DNA of 12,936 nt from positions 1 through 12,936 of the forward strand of contig JANXYE010000641.1 in the NCBI GenBank assembly GCA_025350285.1. Reading direction: 5' to 3'. Positions within the stretch are counted from its first letter, which is position 1. Each line of letters starts with the position of its first letter. A program made the translations under genes and the position numbers. The notes under the pieces were generated by a model that was not told where the DNA came from, made no database searches, and was given only the letters and a program-made list of their open reading frames with translations. The stretch comes from Chloroflexota bacterium (GTDB lineage Bacteria; Chloroflexota; Dehalococcoidia; Tepidiformales; Tepidiformaceae). This document shows positions 2,641 through 12,914 of the stretch, piece by piece.

Positions 2641-2771
2641 GCCGGCTCGTTGCTTGCCGGCCTCCCAATCGGGGCGAGTAGCCGCGTCCGGCCTGAACCT
2701 TGGACCGCTCGTTCTCACTGGCGGCTATGAGGCAGCCTTCGTGGCCCCTTGCTACTCGCTACTGGTCCTTT
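2641..2771 (+). other. Structured noncoding leader region upstream of transketolase
   Basis: This stretch precedes the tkt ATG and holds several inverted repeats. GCCGGC pairs with GCCGGC (2641-2646 and 2656-2661). GCGAGTAGC at 2674-2682 pairs perfectly with GCTACTCGC at 2751-2759. A small GGCT/AGCC hairpin lies at 2723-2737. GGACC at 2703-2707 could instead pair with GGTCC at 2764-2768, just before TTTTT, and this would compete with or cross the long helix. The layout could be an attenuator-like leader or a small palindrome-ended element. It resembles no riboswitch class I recognise. The rest of the gap (2475-2787) shows no convincing gene. Confidence 0.4.
2702..2727 (-). repeat. Short inverted fragment of the dispersed repeat family
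   Basis: Read on the minus strand, these 26 nt align to 5001-5027 of repeat copy 1 with 24 of 27 positions matching and one gap. The match includes 12 identical bases (AACGAGCGGTCC) and 7 identical bases (TAGCCGC). Flanking sequence does not align well, so this is a remnant or a shared structural motif. Confidence 0.45.
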
Positions 2772-2787
2772 TTCGTACGCTTGGGTC

Positions 2788-4788
2788 ATGCCGCCATCCG
2801 CCATCGACCAGATCTGCATCAACACCATCCGCGTCCTCGCCGCTGAGGCCGTCCAGAAGGCGAAGAACGGCCATCCGGGGACGCCGATGGGCGCGGCGCC
2901 GATGGCCTGGACCCTCTGGACGCGCCACCTGCGCCACAACCCCCGCAACCCGGCGTGGCCGGACCGCGACCGTTTCGTGCTCTCCGCGGGGCACGCATCG
3001 ATGCTGCTCTACAGCCTCCTTTCGCTCACGGGCTACGACCTCCCGCTGGAGGAGCTTCAGCATCTGCGTCAGTGGGGCAGCAAAACCCCGGCGCACCCGG
3101 AGTATGGCCACACGCCGGGCGTCGAACTGACCACGGGGCCGCTCGGCGCCGGATTCGCGATGGGCGTCGGCTTCGCCATCGCCGAACGGGCACTGGGCGA
3201 GCGGTTCAACCGCCCAGGCCAGGCGATCGTCGGCCACCACACCTACGGCATCGTGAGCGACGGCGACCTGATGGAAGGGGTCGCATCCGAGGCGGCGAGC
3301 CTTGCCGGCACGCTCGCCCTGGGCAAGCTCATCTACCTCTACGACAGCAACCAGATCACCATCGAAGGCGATACGCACCTCGCCTTCCGCGAGGACGTGG
3401 CCAAGCGCTTCGAGGCGTATGGCTGGCAGGTCCAGCAGGTGGATGGCGAAGACGTGGAGGCAATCGACGCGGCGCTCATCGCGGCCAAGGCGGAGGCGGC
3501 CCGGCCCTCCCTCATCGTCGTGCGGACAACCATCGGTTTCGGCAGCCCGCACAAGGCGGGTACGGAGGCGGCCCACGGATCCGCCCTTGGCGAAGACGAG
3601 GTGCGCCTCACGAAGCAGACGCTCGGCTACCCGGAGGAACCCCCGTTCTACGTCGCGGATGAGGTGCTCGCTGAGTTCCGCAAGGCGATCCCGCGCGGCG
3701 CCGCGTTCGAACAGAGCTGGGACCACTCGTTCACGGCGTACGAAGCCGCAGACCCGGATGCGGCGGCGGCCTGGCGGCGGGCGATGAGTGGCGAACTGCC
3801 CGCGAACCTCGCCGATCTGCTTCCGGTATTCGAATCGAAGGGCGGCGAGATCGCGACCCGGGTGGCCTCCGGCAAGACCCTGAACGCCCTTGCTCCGGCG
3901 CTGGAGAGCCTGATGGGCGGCTCGGCTGACCTCGCCAGCTCGAACAACACCCACCTGGATGGGTCCGGCGATTTCCTCCCGGAGGGGCAGCATGGACGCA
4001 ACATGCACTTCGGCGTGCGCGAACACGCAATGGGCTCGATCGCGAACGGCATGGCGATCCATGGTGGCTTCTTGCCCTATTGCGCGACCTTCCTCGTGTT
4101 CAGCGACTACATGCGCCCGAGCCTCCGGTTGGCCGCAATCATGCAGGCGAAGACGGTCTTCGTGTTCACGCACGACTCCATCGGCCTCGGCGAAGACGGC
4201 CCGACGCACCAGCCGATCGAGCACCTCGCCGGGCTGCGGGCGATGCCCGGCCTTTCCCTCTTTCGCCCGGCCGACGCGAACGAGACGGCCGCCGCCTGGC
4301 TGGCCGCGCTCAAGCACGCCGGCCCGACCGTGATCGTCCTTTCCCGTCAGAATCTGCCGGTGATGGACGATGTCGAAAACATTCGGGCGGGCGTGGGGCG
4401 CGGTGGCTACGTCCTGGCGGATGCGCCCGGCGGGCAGCCCGCGGTCATCCTCATAGGGACCGGCTCAGAGGTTGCGATCGCGCTCAAGGCGCAGGACCAG
4501 CTGGCCAGCGAGGGCATCGAGGCGCGGGTCGTCAGCCTGCCGAGCTGGGACGTCTTCGAAGCGCAGCCGCGGGAGTATCGGGAGTCCGTGCTCCCCTCGG
4601 CCGTTCGCGCGCGCGTCGCCGTGGAGGCGGCCTCACCCTTCGGCTGGCCCAAGTACACCGGCGACGCCGGGGAGATCGTGGCGCTCGATCACTTCGGCGC
4701 GTCGGCCCCGTACCAGGTGCTCTACGAAAAGTTCGGGATAACGGCCGAGAACGTGGTCGCGGCGGCGAAACGGTCGATGGCGCGGTAG
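2788..4788 (+). CDS. tkt: Transketolase
   Basis: This 666-residue enzyme has typical bacterial transketolase length. With thiamine diphosphate and Mg2+ it moves two-carbon ketol units between sugar phosphates in the non-oxidative pentose phosphate pathway and Calvin-type cycles. Motifs include GHPGTPMG with H29, the cofactor motif SDGDLMEG (157-164), N188 in [21 protein letters not shown], the catalytic glutamate E412 in [11 protein letters not shown], and H474 in [11 protein letters not shown] chose ATG 2788 because [15 protein letters not shown] aligns with the normal family N-terminus; a TTG at 2749 would add 13 unlikely residues. No clear Shine-Dalgarno precedes the ATG. The upstream gap has strong inverted repeats. 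Downstream are a stem-loop and then a MITE-like repeat before tal-pgi, the functional partner. Confidence 0.97.
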
Positions 4789-4793
4789 GAGCC

Positions 4794-4811
4794 GGGCGGC
4801 TCTGTCCGCCC
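4794..4811 (+). terminator. Stem-loop directly after tkt
   Basis: GGGCGG (4794-4799) and CCGCCC (4806-4811) form a perfect 6-bp GC stem with a 6-nt loop, starting 5 nt after the tkt stop codon. There is no T-run, so intrinsic termination is uncertain. Position favours a transcript 3' end or a pause site. Confidence 0.4.
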
Positions 4812-4861: not shown

Positions 4862-5066
4862 AACGGGTGTGCGTCAGGTTTTTGCACGATGAGTAGGCAC
4901 CGACCTGGCGCCGCCTGGCCGCGGGCTCTCTCCAGGGAGCGCTCCGTATCCGTCGGGGCCAGGATTGGCGACGTGCGTTCGGGTCGGTGGGGGGCAATCC
5001 TAGCCGCGAGTGGCGAACGAGCGGTCCGTTCACGCCTGAGCCCACGTAAAAATCTGACGAACACCC
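4862..5066 (+). mobile_element. MITE-like noncoding element with terminal inverted repeats (copy 1)
   Basis: The left end GGGTGTGCGTCAGGTTTTT (4865-4883) and the reverse complement of the right end at 5048-5066, GGGTGTTCGTCAGATTTTT, agree at 17 of 19 positions. The element is about 200 bp with no credible ORF. Inside, GGCCAGGATTG (4957-4967) pairs with CAATCCTAGCC (4995-5005) with one C-A mismatch. A second copy at 8267-8441 shares 39 of the first 47 nt, an identical 16-mer (4940-4955), an identical 10-mer (4922-4931) and an identical 31-nt block (4994-5024). These features suit a non-autonomous miniature transposable element. No transposase is present and no clear target-site duplication is visible, so the family is unassigned. 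It fills most of the 343-bp gap between tkt and tal-pgi. Confidence 0.7.
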
Positions 5067-5105: not shown

Positions 5106-5124
5106 TACACTTGAAAGACGGAGG
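5106..5124 (+). promoter_or_regulatory. Possible -10 (TACACT) and strong ribosome site before tal-pgi
   Basis: TACACT at 5106-5111 could be a -10 hexamer, though no good -35 is seen. GGAGG at 5120-5124 is a strong Shine-Dalgarno 7 nt before ATG 5132 and decides that start over an upstream TTG at 5111. Both lie outside the repeat element, so tal-pgi may have its own promoter. Confidence 0.5.
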
Positions 5125-5131
5125 TCCAGCG

Positions 5132-7756
5132 ATGCCAACCACCAACCGCACACAACAGCTCTGGCGAGAAGGCCAGAGCGTCTGGCTCGACTCCATCCGC
5201 CGGGAGATCCTCGTATCCGGCGAACTCGCCCGTATGGTGCGCGATGGTGAGGTCCGCGGCCTCACGTCCAACCCGAGCATCTTCGAAAAAGCGATCTCCG
5301 GCTCCACGGACTACGACGACGCGCTCGCCGCCATCGCCCTCCGCGGCCGGGTTGCGCCGTACGACGCGTTCATCGAACTGGCCGTGGCCGATATCCAGGG
5401 CGCGGCCGATGCGCTCCGGCCGGTCTACGACGAAAGCGGCATGCGTGACGGCTTCGTTTCGCTCGAAGTGCCGCCGGGCGTTGAACGGGACACGGCCGCG
5501 ACCGTGGCCGAGGCGAGGCGCCTGTGGGACCTCGTTAACCGCCCAAACCTGATGATCAAGGTGCCGGGCACGCCCGAGGGCCTGGCCGGCGTTGAGGAAC
5601 TGATCGCCGCCGGTCTCAACATCAACATCACGTTGCTCTTCAGCATGGAGCAGTATCTTGGGACCACCGAGGCATTCATCCGCGGCCTCGAACGGCGGCT
5701 CCCGGCGCCGATCGACCACGTTGCCAGCGTCGCCTCGTTCTTCGTTTCGCGGGTCGATACGGCGGCCGACCCGTTGCTCCCCGAAGGCTCTCCGCTGCGC
5801 GGGAAGGCGGCCGTCGCGAACGCCCAGGCGGTCTATCGCCGCTTCATGGAGACCTTCTCCGGGCCGCGTTGGCGGAAGCTGGCGGCGGCCGGGGCACAGG
5901 TCCAACGCCCGCTCTGGGCCTCCACTGGCACAAAGAACGCGGCCTACAGCGACATCCTTTACGTGCAGGAACTGATCGCGCCGGACACCGTGAACACGAT
6001 GCCGGAAGCCACGCTCAAAGCCGTGCTCGACCACCTGGAGGCGCGCCCAACGGTGGTCCCCAAGCTCGACCAGGCAGATGCCGAGCTAAGAGCGCTGGCC
6101 GCCGCCGGCATCGACCTGGACGCGATCACGAAGCGCTTGCTGATCGAAGGGCTGGCCTCGTTCGCAAAGGACTTCCACAAGCTGCTCGCGCGGGTCGAGG
6201 CGGGCATGGCCCTCGAACGCGCCGGGCACACGCTTCCCCTGAAGGCGGCGGGCGCCCTGGGCAGCGCGATGGACGCGAGGCTGAAGCGGCTCGCGAAGGA
6301 GAAGGTCGTCGAACGCATTTGGGCGAACGACCACACGGTCTGGAAGCCCGACCCGGCGGAGATCACGAATCGTCTCGAGTGGCTTACCGTGCCGGGCGAC
6401 ATGGAGCGGCACATCGGCGAGCTGACGGCGTTCGCGGGCGCGGTGCGGGCCGATGGCTTCACGACCGCCGTCGTGTTGGGCATGGGCGGCTCCAGCCTTG
6501 CGCCGGAGGTGCTGGCAACCGAGTTCGCGGGCGCGGCGGGCGGCCTCGAACTGCTCGTCCTGGACACCACCGACCCGGCCCAGATCCTCGAACTCGAGCG
6601 CGGGATCGACCTCGCGAAGACACTCTTCATCGTCGCCAGCAAGAGCGGCGGGACGATCGAAACGCGCAGCCACTTCGACTACTTCTGGGAGAAGCTCCCG
6701 GACGGCAAGCACTACGTGGTGATCACCGATGCCGGCTCGTCGCTCGAAGCCGCGGGCCAGGCACGGAGCGTGCGGCGTGTCTTCCGTAATCCGCCTGGCA
6801 TCGGCGGCCGCTACTCGGCGTTGAGCTACTTCGGCCTTGTGCCGGCGGCGTTGATCGGCGTCGATCTGGCCGCCTTGCTTGCCAGCGCCCGCGACATGGC
6901 GCTCGCCTGCGGTGCGGCCCTCCCGGCCGGGGAGAATCCCGGAGCCTGGCTCGGGGCCGTCCTCGGCGAAGCGGCCCTCGCCGGACGGGACAAGGTCACG
7001 TTCGTGCTCCCCGAAGCGCACGCCGCGCTCGGCTACTGGCTCGAACAGCTCATCGCCGAATCGACGGGCAAGGAAGGGCACGGCATCGTCCCCGTGGAAG
7101 GCGAACCGCTCGGCGCGCCAGGTGTCTACGGCGCCGATCGGCTGTTCGTGGCTTTCGGCGAACATCCCCGGCTGGCGAAGATAGAAGCGGCTGGCCATCC
7201 GGTCGTGCGGCTGCCGGCGGCGATGGGCACAGACCTCGGCCGCGAGTTCTTCCGCTGGGAGTTCGCGACCGCGGTCGCCGGGCAGATCCTCGGCATCAAC
7301 CCGTTCGACCAGCCGAATGTGCAGGAAGCGAAGGACCTCACGGCGAAAGTCCTCGCCGGCGAAGAGTTCGATTCCAGCACGGCGACGCTGGCGGAGACGC
7401 TCGCGTGCGTAAAGGCGGGCGACTACGTCGCGATCAACGCCTACCTCCCGCGCAACGCCAAGACCATGGCCCGGCTGGCGGCCGTCCGCCTGCGCCTGCG
7501 CGATCAGTACCACGTCGCGACGACGGTCGGGTTCGGGCCCCGCTTCCTCCATTCGACGGGCCAGCTGCACAAGGGCGGCGCGAATAACGGCGTGTTCCTC
7601 CAGGTAGTAACGGACGACCCGACAGATGTGGCTATCCCGGGTAAGCCCTACACCTTCCGCACGCTGAAGGCGGCCCAGTCGCTCGGTGACCTCGCGAGCC
7701 TGAAGTCGCACGGGCGGCGCGTCACGCGGGCCACCTTGGCGGAACTGGAGGCGTAG
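5132..7756 (+). CDS. tal-pgi: Bifunctional transaldolase / glucose-6-phosphate isomerase
   Basis: This 874-residue fusion has two enzymes in one chain. Residues about 1-370 are a transaldolase: LTSNPSIFEKAI, Schiff-base lysine K143 in LMIKVPGTPEG, LNINITLLFS, and WASTGTKN. It transfers a dihydroxyacetone unit between sugar phosphates. Residues about 400-874 are phosphoglucose isomerase with two SIS folds: LGMGGSSLAPEV, ASKSGGTIETRSHF, GIGGRYSALSYFGL, NPFDQPNVQEAK, and HSTGQLHKGGANNG near the end. It interconverts glucose-6-P and fructose-6-P. Such fusions are known in cyanobacteria, Chloroflexota and some other bacteria. With tkt upstream it would link the non-oxidative pentose phosphate pathway to the hexose phosphate pool. 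The oxidative-branch genes often found with it (zwf, gnd) are not downstream; the next gene converges 12 bp away. Confidence 0.96.
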   Translation: MPTTNRTQQLWREGQSVWLDSIRREILVSGELARMVRDGEVRGLTSNPSIFEKAISGSTDYDDALAAIALRGRVAPYDAFIELAVADIQGAADALRPVYDESGMRDGFVSLEVPPGVERDTAATVAEARRLWDLVNRPNLMIKVPGTPEGLAGVEELIAAGLNINITLLFSMEQYLGTTEAFIRGLERRLPAPIDHVASVASFFVSRVDTAADPLLPEGSPLRGKAAVANAQAVYRRFMETFSGPRWRKLAAAGAQVQRPLWASTGTKNAAYSDILYVQELIAPDTVNTMPEATLKAVLDHLEARPTVVPKLDQADAELRALAAAGIDLDAITKRLLIEGLASFAKDFHKLLARVEAGMALERAGHTLPLKAAGALGSAMDARLKRLAKEKVVERIWANDHTVWKPDPAEITNRLEWLTVPGDMERHIGELTAFAGAVRADGFTTAVVLGMGGSSLAPEVLATEFAGAAGGLELLVLDTTDPAQILELERGIDLAKTLFIVASKSGGTIETRSHFDYFWEKLPDGKHYVVITDAGSSLEAAGQARSVRRVFRNPPGIGGRYSALSYFGLVPAALIGVDLAALLASARDMALACGAALPAGENPGAWLGAVLGEAALAGRDKVTFVLPEAHAALGYWLEQLIAESTGKEGHGIVPVEGEPLGAPGVYGADRLFVAFGEHPRLAKIEAAGHPVVRLPAAMGTDLGREFFRWEFATAVAGQILGINPFDQPNVQEAKDLTAKVLAGEEFDSSTATLAETLACVKAGDYVAINAYLPRNAKTMARLAAVRLRLRDQYHVATTVGFGPRFLHSTGQLHKGGANNGVFLQVVTDDPTDVAIPGKPYTFRTLKAAQSLGDLASLKSHGRRVTRATLAELEA

Positions 7757-7768
7757 TGGCGCCAGTCG

Positions 7769-8026
7769 TCAGCGATAAATGGCGCTGCGGTGCCCAACGT
7801 GGCGAACGACTAACACGGACCGCGCTCGATCGACCTCATAGACGACCCGGTAGTCGCCGACGCGTAGTTTGAGCAGACCGGCGAAGGGGCCGGACAGCGC
7901 CTCGGCCCGGGCCTCCGCGAAGTGCTCGGCCATCCACTCCACGCGCAGGACGATCCGGGCGGCAACGCTTGGGCTGAGCTTCAGGAGAATCGCCGCCGCC
8001 GCGTCTTTCCATTCGATGGTGAGCAT
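7769..8026 (-). CDS. Type II toxin, RelE/ParE family
   Basis: This 85-residue basic protein has the RelE/ParE fold signature: MLTIEWKDAAAAIL at the start, then LKLRVGDYRVVYEVD and the end VVRHVGHRSAIYR. Arginines in GDYR and GHRSAIYR are where family members bind RNA or the target. RelE-type toxins cut mRNA on the ribosome, whereas ParE-type toxins poison gyrase; sequence alone does not decide which applies. The start codon overlaps the antitoxin stop by one base (TGATG), so translation is coupled to the antitoxin. Its 3' end converges on tal-pgi, leaving a 12-bp gap. Confidence 0.85.
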   Translation of the reverse strand: MLTIEWKDAAAAILLKLSPSVAARIVLRVEWMAEHFAEARAEALSGPFAGLLKLRVGDYRVVYEVDRARSVLVVRHVGHRSAIYR

Positions 8027-8229
8027 CAGGCCGCCGGTATCCCCAGTCGGCGCCGGAGCTCTTCCGTGGAGATGCCCGGGCCGTCGTCGGCCATCGACGC
8101 CCGCAGTTCCTGCTCGAACTCGGGCCGCAACTCGCCTTCATCGTCGGGCATGGGAGCGCGCATGGCTTCGGCGAAGGTCTCCCGCATGAGCGCCCGCAGT
8201 TCATCGTCGGTCATTTCGGAAACAGACAT
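8026..8229 (-). CDS. Antitoxin partner of the RelE/ParE toxin
   Basis: This 67-residue acidic protein is rich in Asp and Glu (TDDELRALM, PDDEGELRPEFEQEL) and ends with an ISTEELRRRLGI segment often seen in small antitoxins. Function is assigned mainly from position: it is transcribed first, is of antitoxin size and charge, and overlaps the toxin start by one base. It would bind and neutralise the toxin and perhaps repress the operon, though no clear DNA-binding fold is visible. The ATG lies 6 nt after a TATGAT box, suggesting a leaderless transcript. Repeat copy 2 begins 37 bp upstream. Confidence 0.75.
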   Translation of the reverse strand: MSVSEMTDDELRALMRETFAEAMRAPMPDDEGELRPEFEQELRASMADDGPGISTEELRRRLGIPAA

Positions 8230-8266: not shown

Positions 8267-8441
8267 AACGGGTGCGCGTCAGATTTTCGCACAATGAGTC
8301 AGCATCGACGTGGTTCTGTCCACCCGGCTACGGGCTCTCTGGAGAGACCGCTCCGTATCCGTCGCGGCTAGGATTGGTGCTCGGTTCAAGCGCCGCCAGG
8401 GTGCAATCCTAGCCGCGAGTGGCGAACGAGCGGGCCGCTCC
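8267..8441 (+). mobile_element. MITE-like noncoding element, right-end-truncated copy 2
   Basis: It lies between the antitoxin start and the metH stop, in the same orientation as copy 1. It matches copy 1 at 39 of 47 positions at the left end (8267-8313). It is identical over 10 nt (8331-8340), 16 nt (8349-8364) and 31 nt (8403-8433). The internal hairpin is perfect here: 13 bp pair 8364-8376 with 8404-8416. The right inverted repeat found in copy 1 is missing; similarity fades after about 8441, some 40 bp before the metH stop. The rest of the gap to 8482 shows nothing recognisable. Confidence 0.65.
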
Positions 8442-12090: not shown

Positions 12091-12315
12091 TCAGCGCTTC
12101 AGACGATTGAACTCATCAACGGTTATCCCCAGGCGCCGAATCAACTGCCGAAGTGTGCCCGCGCGCAGTTCAGTGCGGGCAGGAATGGACAGGTGTCCAG
12201 GTATCTCGGCATGGATGTAGACGTGGTGGCTGCCAGTTGCATGGTCGAACGTCCAGCCAAGCTGCGTTGCGGCCCGGACAGTCTCGGCGAACGTTGTGTT
12301 CGACAGCCGTCCCAC
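12091..12315 (-). CDS. hicA: HicA family mRNA interferase toxin
   Basis: This 74-residue protein has a double-stranded RNA-binding-like fold. It shows the HicA hallmark GSHHVYIH, with predicted catalytic His31, followed by LSIPART and the typical end LRAGTLRQLIRRLGITVDEF. HicA toxins cleave mRNA and tmRNA without needing the ribosome. The GTG start shares one base with the hicB stop (TAGTG), so translation is coupled. The gene order is antitoxin first, the reverse of the classic hicAB order. metH begins 47 bp downstream on the same strand. Confidence 0.92.
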   Translation of the reverse strand: MGRLSNTTFAETVRAATQLGWTFDHATGSHHVYIHAEIPGHLSIPARTELRAGTLRQLIRRLGITVDEFNRLKR

Positions 12316-12608
12316 TAGGCCGGGACCGCGACACGAATCGGGACGATCGCCGTCTCGACGACGCTATCAAGCCCTTCCTCCGCTCGATCCTCAAGAACCT
12401 CGCGGATCATCTCCGCGATTCGCTCCGGAGTTTCGGCGAGGGGCGGGTAGTTCCGCCGGGTGCCGGCCTCCAGCCACCCCTCCATCGCCTCAGCAATGTT
12501 ACGCAGGGCCTCATCGCGCGTATCGCCCTGACTGACGGCGCCCGGCATGGCGGGGACGCTCACGGAATATCCGCCGGAGTCGGGGGAAAGAATGACAGTG
12601 AACCGCAT
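12315..12608 (-). CDS. hicB: HicB family antitoxin
   Basis: This 97-residue protein has the partial RNase H-like HicB fold: FTVILSPDSGGYSVSVPAM, PGAVSQGDTRDEALRNIAEA, and MEGWLEAG. It should bind and block the HicA toxin encoded immediately downstream. The C-terminus ends in IVPIRVAVPA with no visible helix-turn-helix or ribbon-helix-helix domain, so the mode of autoregulation is unclear. I chose ATG 12608 over the GTG one codon upstream because TACAAT lies exactly 6 nt before it, as for two other antitoxins here, implying a leaderless message. Confidence 0.92.
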   Translation of the reverse strand: MRFTVILSPDSGGYSVSVPAMPGAVSQGDTRDEALRNIAEAMEGWLEAGTRRNYPPLAETPERIAEMIREVLEDRAEEGLDSVVETAIVPIRVAVPA

Positions 12609-12614
12609 CACGCA

Positions 12615-12623
12615 ATTGTACCA
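12615..12623 (-). promoter_or_regulatory. Extended -10 promoter (TGGTACAAT) of hicBA
   Basis: On the minus strand TG-G-TACAAT matches an extended -10 element. It ends 6 nt before the hicB ATG. No -35 match is seen. Confidence 0.5.
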
Positions 12624-12668
12624 CCGCCGACCAGCGCGCGATCTGAGAACGCATATCGACGAGCGAGT

Positions 12669-12914
12669 TCAATCGAGATCGTCGTCCATGTCGTCGAAGT
12701 CATCGAGCGGATCGTCGAAGTCTGGCGAAATCCACACCTTGCCCTTCCATTCACCGAAACCCAGAGCCGGCTCCTCGGCAGGCTCGCGCACGGGCACAAG
12801 CCGTGCGACGGTCTTACCGCCCTTCGCGACCAAAACTTCGTCGCCGGCGTCGAGGCCCGCGAGCACCCGAGGCCACCCAACGATGTCCAAGTCTGCGTCG
12901 ATGGTCAGCGTCAT
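12669..12914 (-). CDS. Phd/YefM family antitoxin, apparently without its toxin
   Basis: This 81-residue protein resembles Phd-type antitoxins. A central GDEVLVAKGGKTVARLVPV matches the typical 'GEEVLITRRGKPVARLVP' pattern, followed by WKGKVWISPDFDDPL. The C-terminus is very acidic (DDFDDMDDDLD), suited to masking a basic toxin. Related antitoxins usually precede a PIN-domain VapC toxin. Here only 60 bp separate its stop from the hicB start, so no toxin gene follows in the transcribed direction. It may be an orphan remnant, a solitary regulator or an anti-addiction antitoxin. A TATACT box ends 6 nt before the ATG. Confidence 0.82.
   Translation of the reverse strand: MTLTIDADLDIVGWPRVLAGLDAGDEVLVAKGGKTVARLVPVREPAEEPALGFGEWKGKVWISPDFDDPLDDFDDMDDDLD

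Follow-up and report, generated by a model that had tools for sequence, protein, structure and literature searches.

The window, by which we mean the whole 12,936-nucleotide stretch analyzed, contains tkt and, downstream on the same strand, a tal-pgi fusion gene, with a short repeat element in the gap between the two. The relevant features are as follows.

2749..4788, + strand: tkt (transketolase), upstream of the element; an open frame with tblastn partners in relatives
4785..4811, + strand: GTAG-tagged palindromic unit of a second repeat family, at the tkt stop codon; 0 mismatches at 4785
4865..5066, + strand: miniature element (MITE) with ISKra4-type ends; 202 bp, paired 17/19 ends, multicopy in its own genome
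4865..4883, + strand: left terminal inverted repeat; 1 mismatch to GGGTGTGCGTCAGATTTTT
4939..4966, + strand: interior unit A (RAYT-associated palindromic unit); differs from the family unit at 3 positions
4996..5025, - strand: interior unit B, inverted with respect to A; exact ACCGCTC-N-TCGCGGC at 5003-5025, B motif at 4996 with 0 mismatches
5048..5066, - strand: right terminal inverted repeat, facing tal-pgi; 1 mismatch to GGGTGTGCGTCAGATTTTT
5106..5111, + strand: -10-like hexamer TACACT of a putative tal-pgi promoter, 39 bp beyond the right end
5132..7756, + strand: tal-pgi fusion gene, downstream of the element; an open frame with ATG at 5132
8270..8433, + strand: second copy of the element, with the left end and both interior units; right end unrecognizable

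The element is short and non-coding (open frames that cross it are listed) and carries terminal inverted repeats, as is characteristic of MITEs. The original prediction had placed mirrored ends at 4862..5066; the match between the ends, 17 of 19 positions, holds, and the start has to be moved by 3 bp, from 4862 to 4865. The second copy that had been noticed inside the window is indeed present, with its left end at 8270 and the two interior units following at 8348 and 8405; a right end of this copy was not detected at up to 5 mismatches. Transaldolase and glucose-6-phosphate isomerase are encoded by the single open frame 5132-7756 (gene names were assigned by eye and from the original prediction); the long frame is also found in relatives of several genera, and elsewhere the match spans one part only. 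Small frames at 7769-8204 and 12315-12914 resemble, by eye, toxin-antitoxin genes (RelE-like, HicB/Phd-like). The GTAG-tagged unit of 4785-4811 has 6 occurrences at up to 4 mismatches in the window plus 69 further contigs of the same genome, and three of its copies (0-2 mismatches) lie around the Y1 transposase gene of one contig (L261, C368); this unit and this gene are a second repeat-transposase pair in the genome.

The Tal-Pgi protein finds a match at E<=0.001 in 35 of the 38 genomes of the family when the own genome is included, that is, in 34 of the 37 others, some of the matches being weak or partial. Both the end of tkt and the start of tal are held by 12 of the 29 loci of relatives that were examined. 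The gap between the two genes is 14-30 bp in 10 of these 12 and about 490-500 bp in the remaining two, compared with about 347 bp in the window. No end was found in the gap at up to 6 mismatches in any of the 12 same-family relatives that hold both genes; recurrence at the same locus was the case that the original prediction had set against a mobile element. The two relatives with the long gap are L185 and L186.

The genome from which the window comes (G000) belongs to Dehalococcoidia and is assembled to 3.24 Mb in 691 contigs, with 82% completeness. The 19-bp end has 70 matches in it at up to 3 mismatches, compared with 0 for the reversed pattern, and an interior 28-mer has 69 matches (control 0). 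A blastn search of the own genome with the 205 bp gave at least 45 matches (E<=0.001), with 40 of the 117 first-look candidates scored. The proposal of a multicopy miniature element with further copies that share the same ends is thus borne out many times over. The same search over 98 relatives returned two weak, short matches, one in G046, which is a lone end (L031, E 3.7e-4), and one in G035 (L032, E 5.4e-4), a 29-bp match that was dropped. Among viral contigs, the interior unit has 0 matches and the end has 1, a single exact end on one contig (L256, IMGVR_UViG_3300035135_001690, 7081-7099); the plasmid search gave no match.

Ends located 90-450 bp apart were paired across 484 kb of sequence, comprising the window and 69 contigs, yielding 30 pairs; the contigs had been selected by a match to the window copy, the end or unit A, which favors conserved ends and units. 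When 5 mismatches are allowed, this sample contains 109 end matches compared with 11 for the reversed pattern; therefore, a few of the ends are due to chance. The 9-bp flanks agree at 8 or 9 positions in 13 of the 30 pairs, as expected of target duplications, whereas shuffled partners give a mean of 0.47 such pairs and a maximum of 4 in 2000 rounds; the other 17 pairs fall below 8/9 agreement. Exact flank repeats peak at 9 bp (5/30), with no more than 2/30 at every other length from 2 to 15. The 13 counted duplications include two copies on one contig (C324) that share flanks and so are not independent, and one copy (L072 10572) whose ends are poor (4 and 5 mismatches) and which lacks an interior unit; duplication counts that allow for shifted boundaries came without a control and were left unused. 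Target duplication, sought as a sign of transposition, is accordingly evident in the family and absent from the window copy, the flanks of which agree at 2 of 9 positions. The copies are diverged, with pairwise identity from 47% to 96% and a median of 76% (24 copies).

Some copies have unusual arrangements. On C324 (L094), the two copies at 67-288 and 5945-6165 are inverted, have like flanks and lie near both ends of the contig, which could be either an inverted duplication or an assembly effect. Three contigs (L124, C375; L117, C351; L125, C142) carry tandem interior units with spacings of about 111, 155 and 163 bp, which look as if the element grew via internal duplication.

A search for the end pattern in named genomes produced 22 stretches, including MITEs with paired ends in Chloroflexota. 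At up to 2 mismatches, the pattern occurs in 13 of the 393 genomes of the class, 70 times in the own genome and at most 9 times in any other (the next three listed have 9, 6 and 4 matches). Ten MITEs outside the own genome were delineated (L134, L138, L141, L142, L146, L147, L149, L151, L238), in Chloroflexota and in one metagenome-assembled genome labeled Rubrobacter. Their outer 19 bp are related to the family pattern, with 0-4 mismatches, and the 9-bp duplication is perfect in seven, 8/9 in one (L142), 7 in one and 4 in one; six of the ten have a -10-like hexamer at the same offset as the copies described below. The interior of the window copy has no blastn match to any of the ten interiors (E 0.01). 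Eight stretches from outside Chloroflexota (L132, L133, L135, L136, L137, L140, L145, L152) have no second end within 4 mismatches and were set aside as chance matches; L143, L144, L148 and L153, each with an end that lacks a partner, were not used.

The original prediction held that the family could not be named for want of a transposase. As far as the own genome is concerned, this stands: neither the ISKra4 transposase model nor PF00872 has a match in the 82% complete assembly. The ends, in contrast, can be named. Matches to the ISKra4 model were found in 109 of 400 genomes of the phylum, 25 of them above the cut-off; 30 ISKra4 loci were scanned for ends and duplications, and 13 further stretches were added. 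In five of the 30 loci (L166, L167, L170, L171, L174), GGGTG-type ends that differ from the family pattern at 4-6 positions lie on both sides, and the 9-bp duplication is perfect; apart from these five and L173 (see below), the other 24 yielded no end pair with a duplication. Among the 13 further stretches, L224 has both ends at 1 mismatch from the pattern and a perfect duplication. The class to which the window belongs contributes L236/L244, whose two ends, each with 2 mismatches, enclose an ISKra4-like frame of 442 aa (ISKra4 E 6e-53, 180 bits, cut-off 205). In L173, an ISKra4 gene lies between two ends at 2 mismatches, but the duplication is absent (1/9). Autonomous elements with matching ends, which had been anticipated, are thus represented by complete ISKra4 elements of other Chloroflexota, and the ends of the present family, judged by their sequence, are of this ISKra4 type. 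Because the own genome yields no ISKra4 transposase gene, the element is a derivative by its ends rather than an autonomous member. The 8-9 bp duplications (13/30 pairs) are those described for the transposase superfamily that includes ISKra4 in passages of PMC3942029, which place the ISKra4 group as p-MULT 4 among prokaryotic Mutator-like DDE transposases.

Two apparent parents did not withstand inspection. In L139, the frame beside the end hits ISKra4 weakly (E 4.8e-5, below the cut-off), and the next frame hits the IS256 model NF033543 (E 2.5e-5, 23.5 bits, cut-off 150) and MULE (E 5.3e-4, below the cut-off); L139 was left uncounted because all its model matches are below the cut-offs. In L150, the frame 1192-2637 was considered as a transposase within an element; the end at 505, however, closes after about 160 bp and by eye is a separate MITE with a shortened right end.

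According to passages of PMC3942029, 13 named IS of the ISKra4 group insert at a fixed distance upstream of sigmaA promoters, with either side. A recurrent hexamer had been noticed in flanks of the copies, and we took the sequence outside 44 right and 39 left ends, or 42 and 37 once like and short flanks had been removed. TANNNT hexamers whose first base is 37-42 bp from the junction are present in 19 of the 42 right and 9 of the 37 left flanks (background 1.24%); the other 23 right and 28 left flanks have no hexamer at the set distance. In right flanks, the bin 36-41 holds 18 hexamers, with no more than 2 in other 6-bp bins from 0 to 65; right and left flanks do not differ significantly (Fisher p 0.06). 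Because both the hexamer and the range of offsets were settled on once the flanks had been inspected, p-values are not those of a blind test. Among 16 foreign elements (6 ISKra4 elements chosen for their duplications and 10 MITEs, 4 of which are of one family), 12 have the hexamer on at least one side, compared with 0.91 expected from their own loci; L150, L173, L236/L244 and the lone ends of L162, L181 and L226 were omitted from this count. Several of the foreign elements show, by eye, a TTGAC near offset 16. In the G000 flanks, alignment on the hexamer brings out no -35 consensus upstream of it, and the information content of the flanks shows no clear peak column by column because the position of the hexamer shifts by a few bases and its sequence is variable.

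The habit of some ISKra4-group elements of inserting at a constant distance before sigmaA promoters is thus seen here in the flanks within the own genome as well as in those of foreign relatives, and it follows that the published promoter-targeted insertion has been kept by the miniature form. The view that the element splits two genes, tkt and tal-pgi, is correct and needs an amendment: the window copy also sits at the distance from the tal-pgi promoter-like site that many sister copies keep.

The interior of the element is an inverted pair of ~31-bp units, A and B, which share with units that flank a Y1 gene (see below) the common frame ACCGCTC-N(7-9)-TCGCGGC(T/C)AGGAT. The pattern ACCGCTCN{5,12}TCGCGGC has 115 matches in the genome compared with 2 for the control; a longer unit pattern occurs in one of the 38 family genomes, the own one, with 91 matches compared with 0 for the control, and in 0 of the 37 others. 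Among 109 units on 73 contigs or contig parts, 36 are enclosed by two ends, 35 adjoin a single end and 38 adjoin none, 10 of the latter being within 200 bp of a contig end. As 38 of the 109 units have no recognizable end nearby, the units have a life outside the shell. Neighboring units form pairs inverted as + then - in 31 of 43 cases. Over an alignment of 22 copies, column identity is 96% (A) and 94% in the units, compared with 89% and 91% in the ends, and 59% in the A-B spacer; this alignment derives from the 30 pairs after six of other length (L083 4204, L100, L109, L117, L118, L124), L072 10572 and the second C324 copy had been dropped.

On contig C79 (L259), a 159-aa Y1/HUH frame at 560-1039 is bracketed by inverted units at 526(-) and 1033(+), the second of which overlaps the stop codon of the frame; the remaining two Y1 genes in the genome have no such units nearby. 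Units that bracket a transposase gene in inverted orientation are the arrangement expected of the REP sequences of a RAYT, and passages of PMC2817692, PMC3116915 and PMC3733652 describe this gene-unit layout for the RAYT/REP, REPIN and TIRYT/TIR families. The L259 protein matches the RAYT model NF047646 weakly (E 6.6e-5, 22.8 bits, cut-off 80) and PF01797 at 20.6 (cut-off 23); a protein with 53% identity to it (P0007) is named RayT by its source, as are others among the 120 listed. Neither of the two transposases has a match among solved structures up to E 0.1. The units read AATCCTAGCCGCGA... and lack the GTAG head, and are therefore called REP-like or TIRYT-type rather than REP proper. The element is thus layered, with ISKra4-type ends outside and, inside, a repeat pair tied to a second, unrelated transposase.

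Several other readings of these observations have to be weighed. A conserved cis-acting RNA or regulatory element, located before genes and spread by duplication rather than transposition, would be in keeping with the folding of the window element, which beats that of its shuffles (RNA z -3.0, DNA z -2.5), with the promoter-like site that often follows the element and with the nearly invariant columns of the interior units. Nevertheless, the 9-bp target duplications in the family and a junction free of the ends in all 12 relatives with both genes largely refute it; furthermore, covariation, with both sides changed, is confined to 1 of the 34 predicted pairs, Rfam has no match in the window up to E 1, and the interior unit pattern is limited to 1 of 38 family genomes, and we leave this reading hardly any probability. 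The ends could also derive from a different family whose duplications are 8-9 bp long, for instance IS256: passages of PMC3942029 likewise give duplications of 8 or 9 bp for IS256, and the second frame of L139 has the weak IS256 hit given above. The ends are, however, 1-2 mismatches away from those of elements with ISKra4 transposases, PF00872 is not matched in the own genome, and the copies are enriched near promoters at a set position, which the same passages do not report for p-MULT 1 (IS256); an origin from IS256 or the like appears highly improbable.

The fixed promoter distance might result from selection, such that insertions were random and those that spared promoters survived, given that insertions within promoters or genes would tend to vanish. 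Survival, however, permits any distance past the promoter, whereas the hexamer peak is about 6 bp wide, and the same offset recurs in foreign IS and MITEs; we consider this account quite unlikely. Finally, the interior pair itself might be the real mobile unit, moved by a RAYT-like protein, with the ISKra4-type ends as an old passenger. This reading draws on the units without recognizable ends, on the greater likeness of the unit columns than of the ends and on the transposase gene bracketed by units, which is still present while there is none for the ends. Yet it is from the outer ends that both the 9-bp duplications and the constant distance to the promoter are measured, some of the unit-only loci have decayed ends by eye (L093), the unit-only loci are putative as insertions, and the likeness of the units may be inflated because the contigs were chosen partly by unit A matches. 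Primary mobility of the pair therefore seems improbable, albeit worth keeping in mind.

The stretch is, in all likelihood, a non-autonomous MITE with ends of the ISKra4 family that has kept promoter-directed insertion and has taken in, or grown around, a REP-like doublet. Under this scenario, an ISKra4 transposase acting in trans would have recognized the ends and inserted the element about 15 bp before the -35 region of a sigmaA-type promoter, possibly with some preference for the orientation in which the right end faces the promoter. Such an insertion would leave the promoter and the gene intact, and we propose that copies are for this reason tolerated and accumulate; the tal-pgi copy would be one such insertion. 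The interior pair would be a captured REP-like doublet, and its likeness across copies could stem from its HUH protein acting on the doublet or from another constraint. Given that no transposase for the ends was found, either the family has stopped moving or the gene lies in sequence that the assembly lacks. That the element moves in trans, that the HUH protein binds the doublet and that tal-pgi is affected in any way are inferences.

A further possibility, advanced tentatively and open to considerable doubt, is that the two layers serve two unrelated transposition systems, with the ISKra4 DDE shell targeting promoters and a HUH protein of the RAYT/TIRYT kind, encoded in the same genome, binding the hairpin doublet and keeping it uniform. 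If so, some dozens of promoters would share one binding doublet, located about 80-170 bp before the -10 hexamer, and the doublets would constitute a ready-made dispersed control site. Repeats of a HUH transposase that travel inside a DDE-type element are a directly testable mix of two systems. Apart from this, a previously unassigned repeat family now has a name; a MITE can retain the promoter-seeking of its parent IS, placing the same sequence before many genes with none broken; and related MITEs of other Chloroflexota can be recognized and annotated by the ends GGGTGKSCGTCAGATTTTTG, which they have in common with this family.

Among described bacterial MITEs, the 187-bp element of Microcystis (PMC11448079) is similar in being short and multicopy; in the passages that describe it, it has 8-nt direct repeats, and it is set apart by imperfect ends of nine nucleotides, with ISKra4 unmentioned in that text. 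Nezha, a cyanobacterial MITE that is "active" according to its title, is likened here by mention alone. A search of titles and abstracts, in which subscription journals are thinly covered, returned no paper on an ISKra4-derived MITE or on RAYT-type units inside a DDE-type MITE. The family shares with the ISKra4 group, as characterized in passages of PMC3942029, the end type (18-39 bp), the 8-9 bp duplications, insertion at a promoter distance and the presence of Chloroflexi among the phyla; the elements of that group are complete with a transposase, unlike the 202-bp derivative described here, and the words MITE and miniature are absent from the main text of that paper. The interior resembles the RAYT-REP and TIRYT-TIR systems (passages of PMC2817692 and PMC3733652) in that a small HUH/Y1 gene is bracketed by inverted units that are scattered elsewhere, often as doublets; unlike those of RAYT-REP, the units lack GTAG, and the TIRYT layout fits at least equally well. 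The outer DDE-type shell is a feature of the present family that those passages do not describe. As in REPINs (passages of PMC3116915), two inverted units and a spacer can form a single hairpin; in contrast to REPINs, many of the doublets here lie inside an element with ISKra4-type ends.
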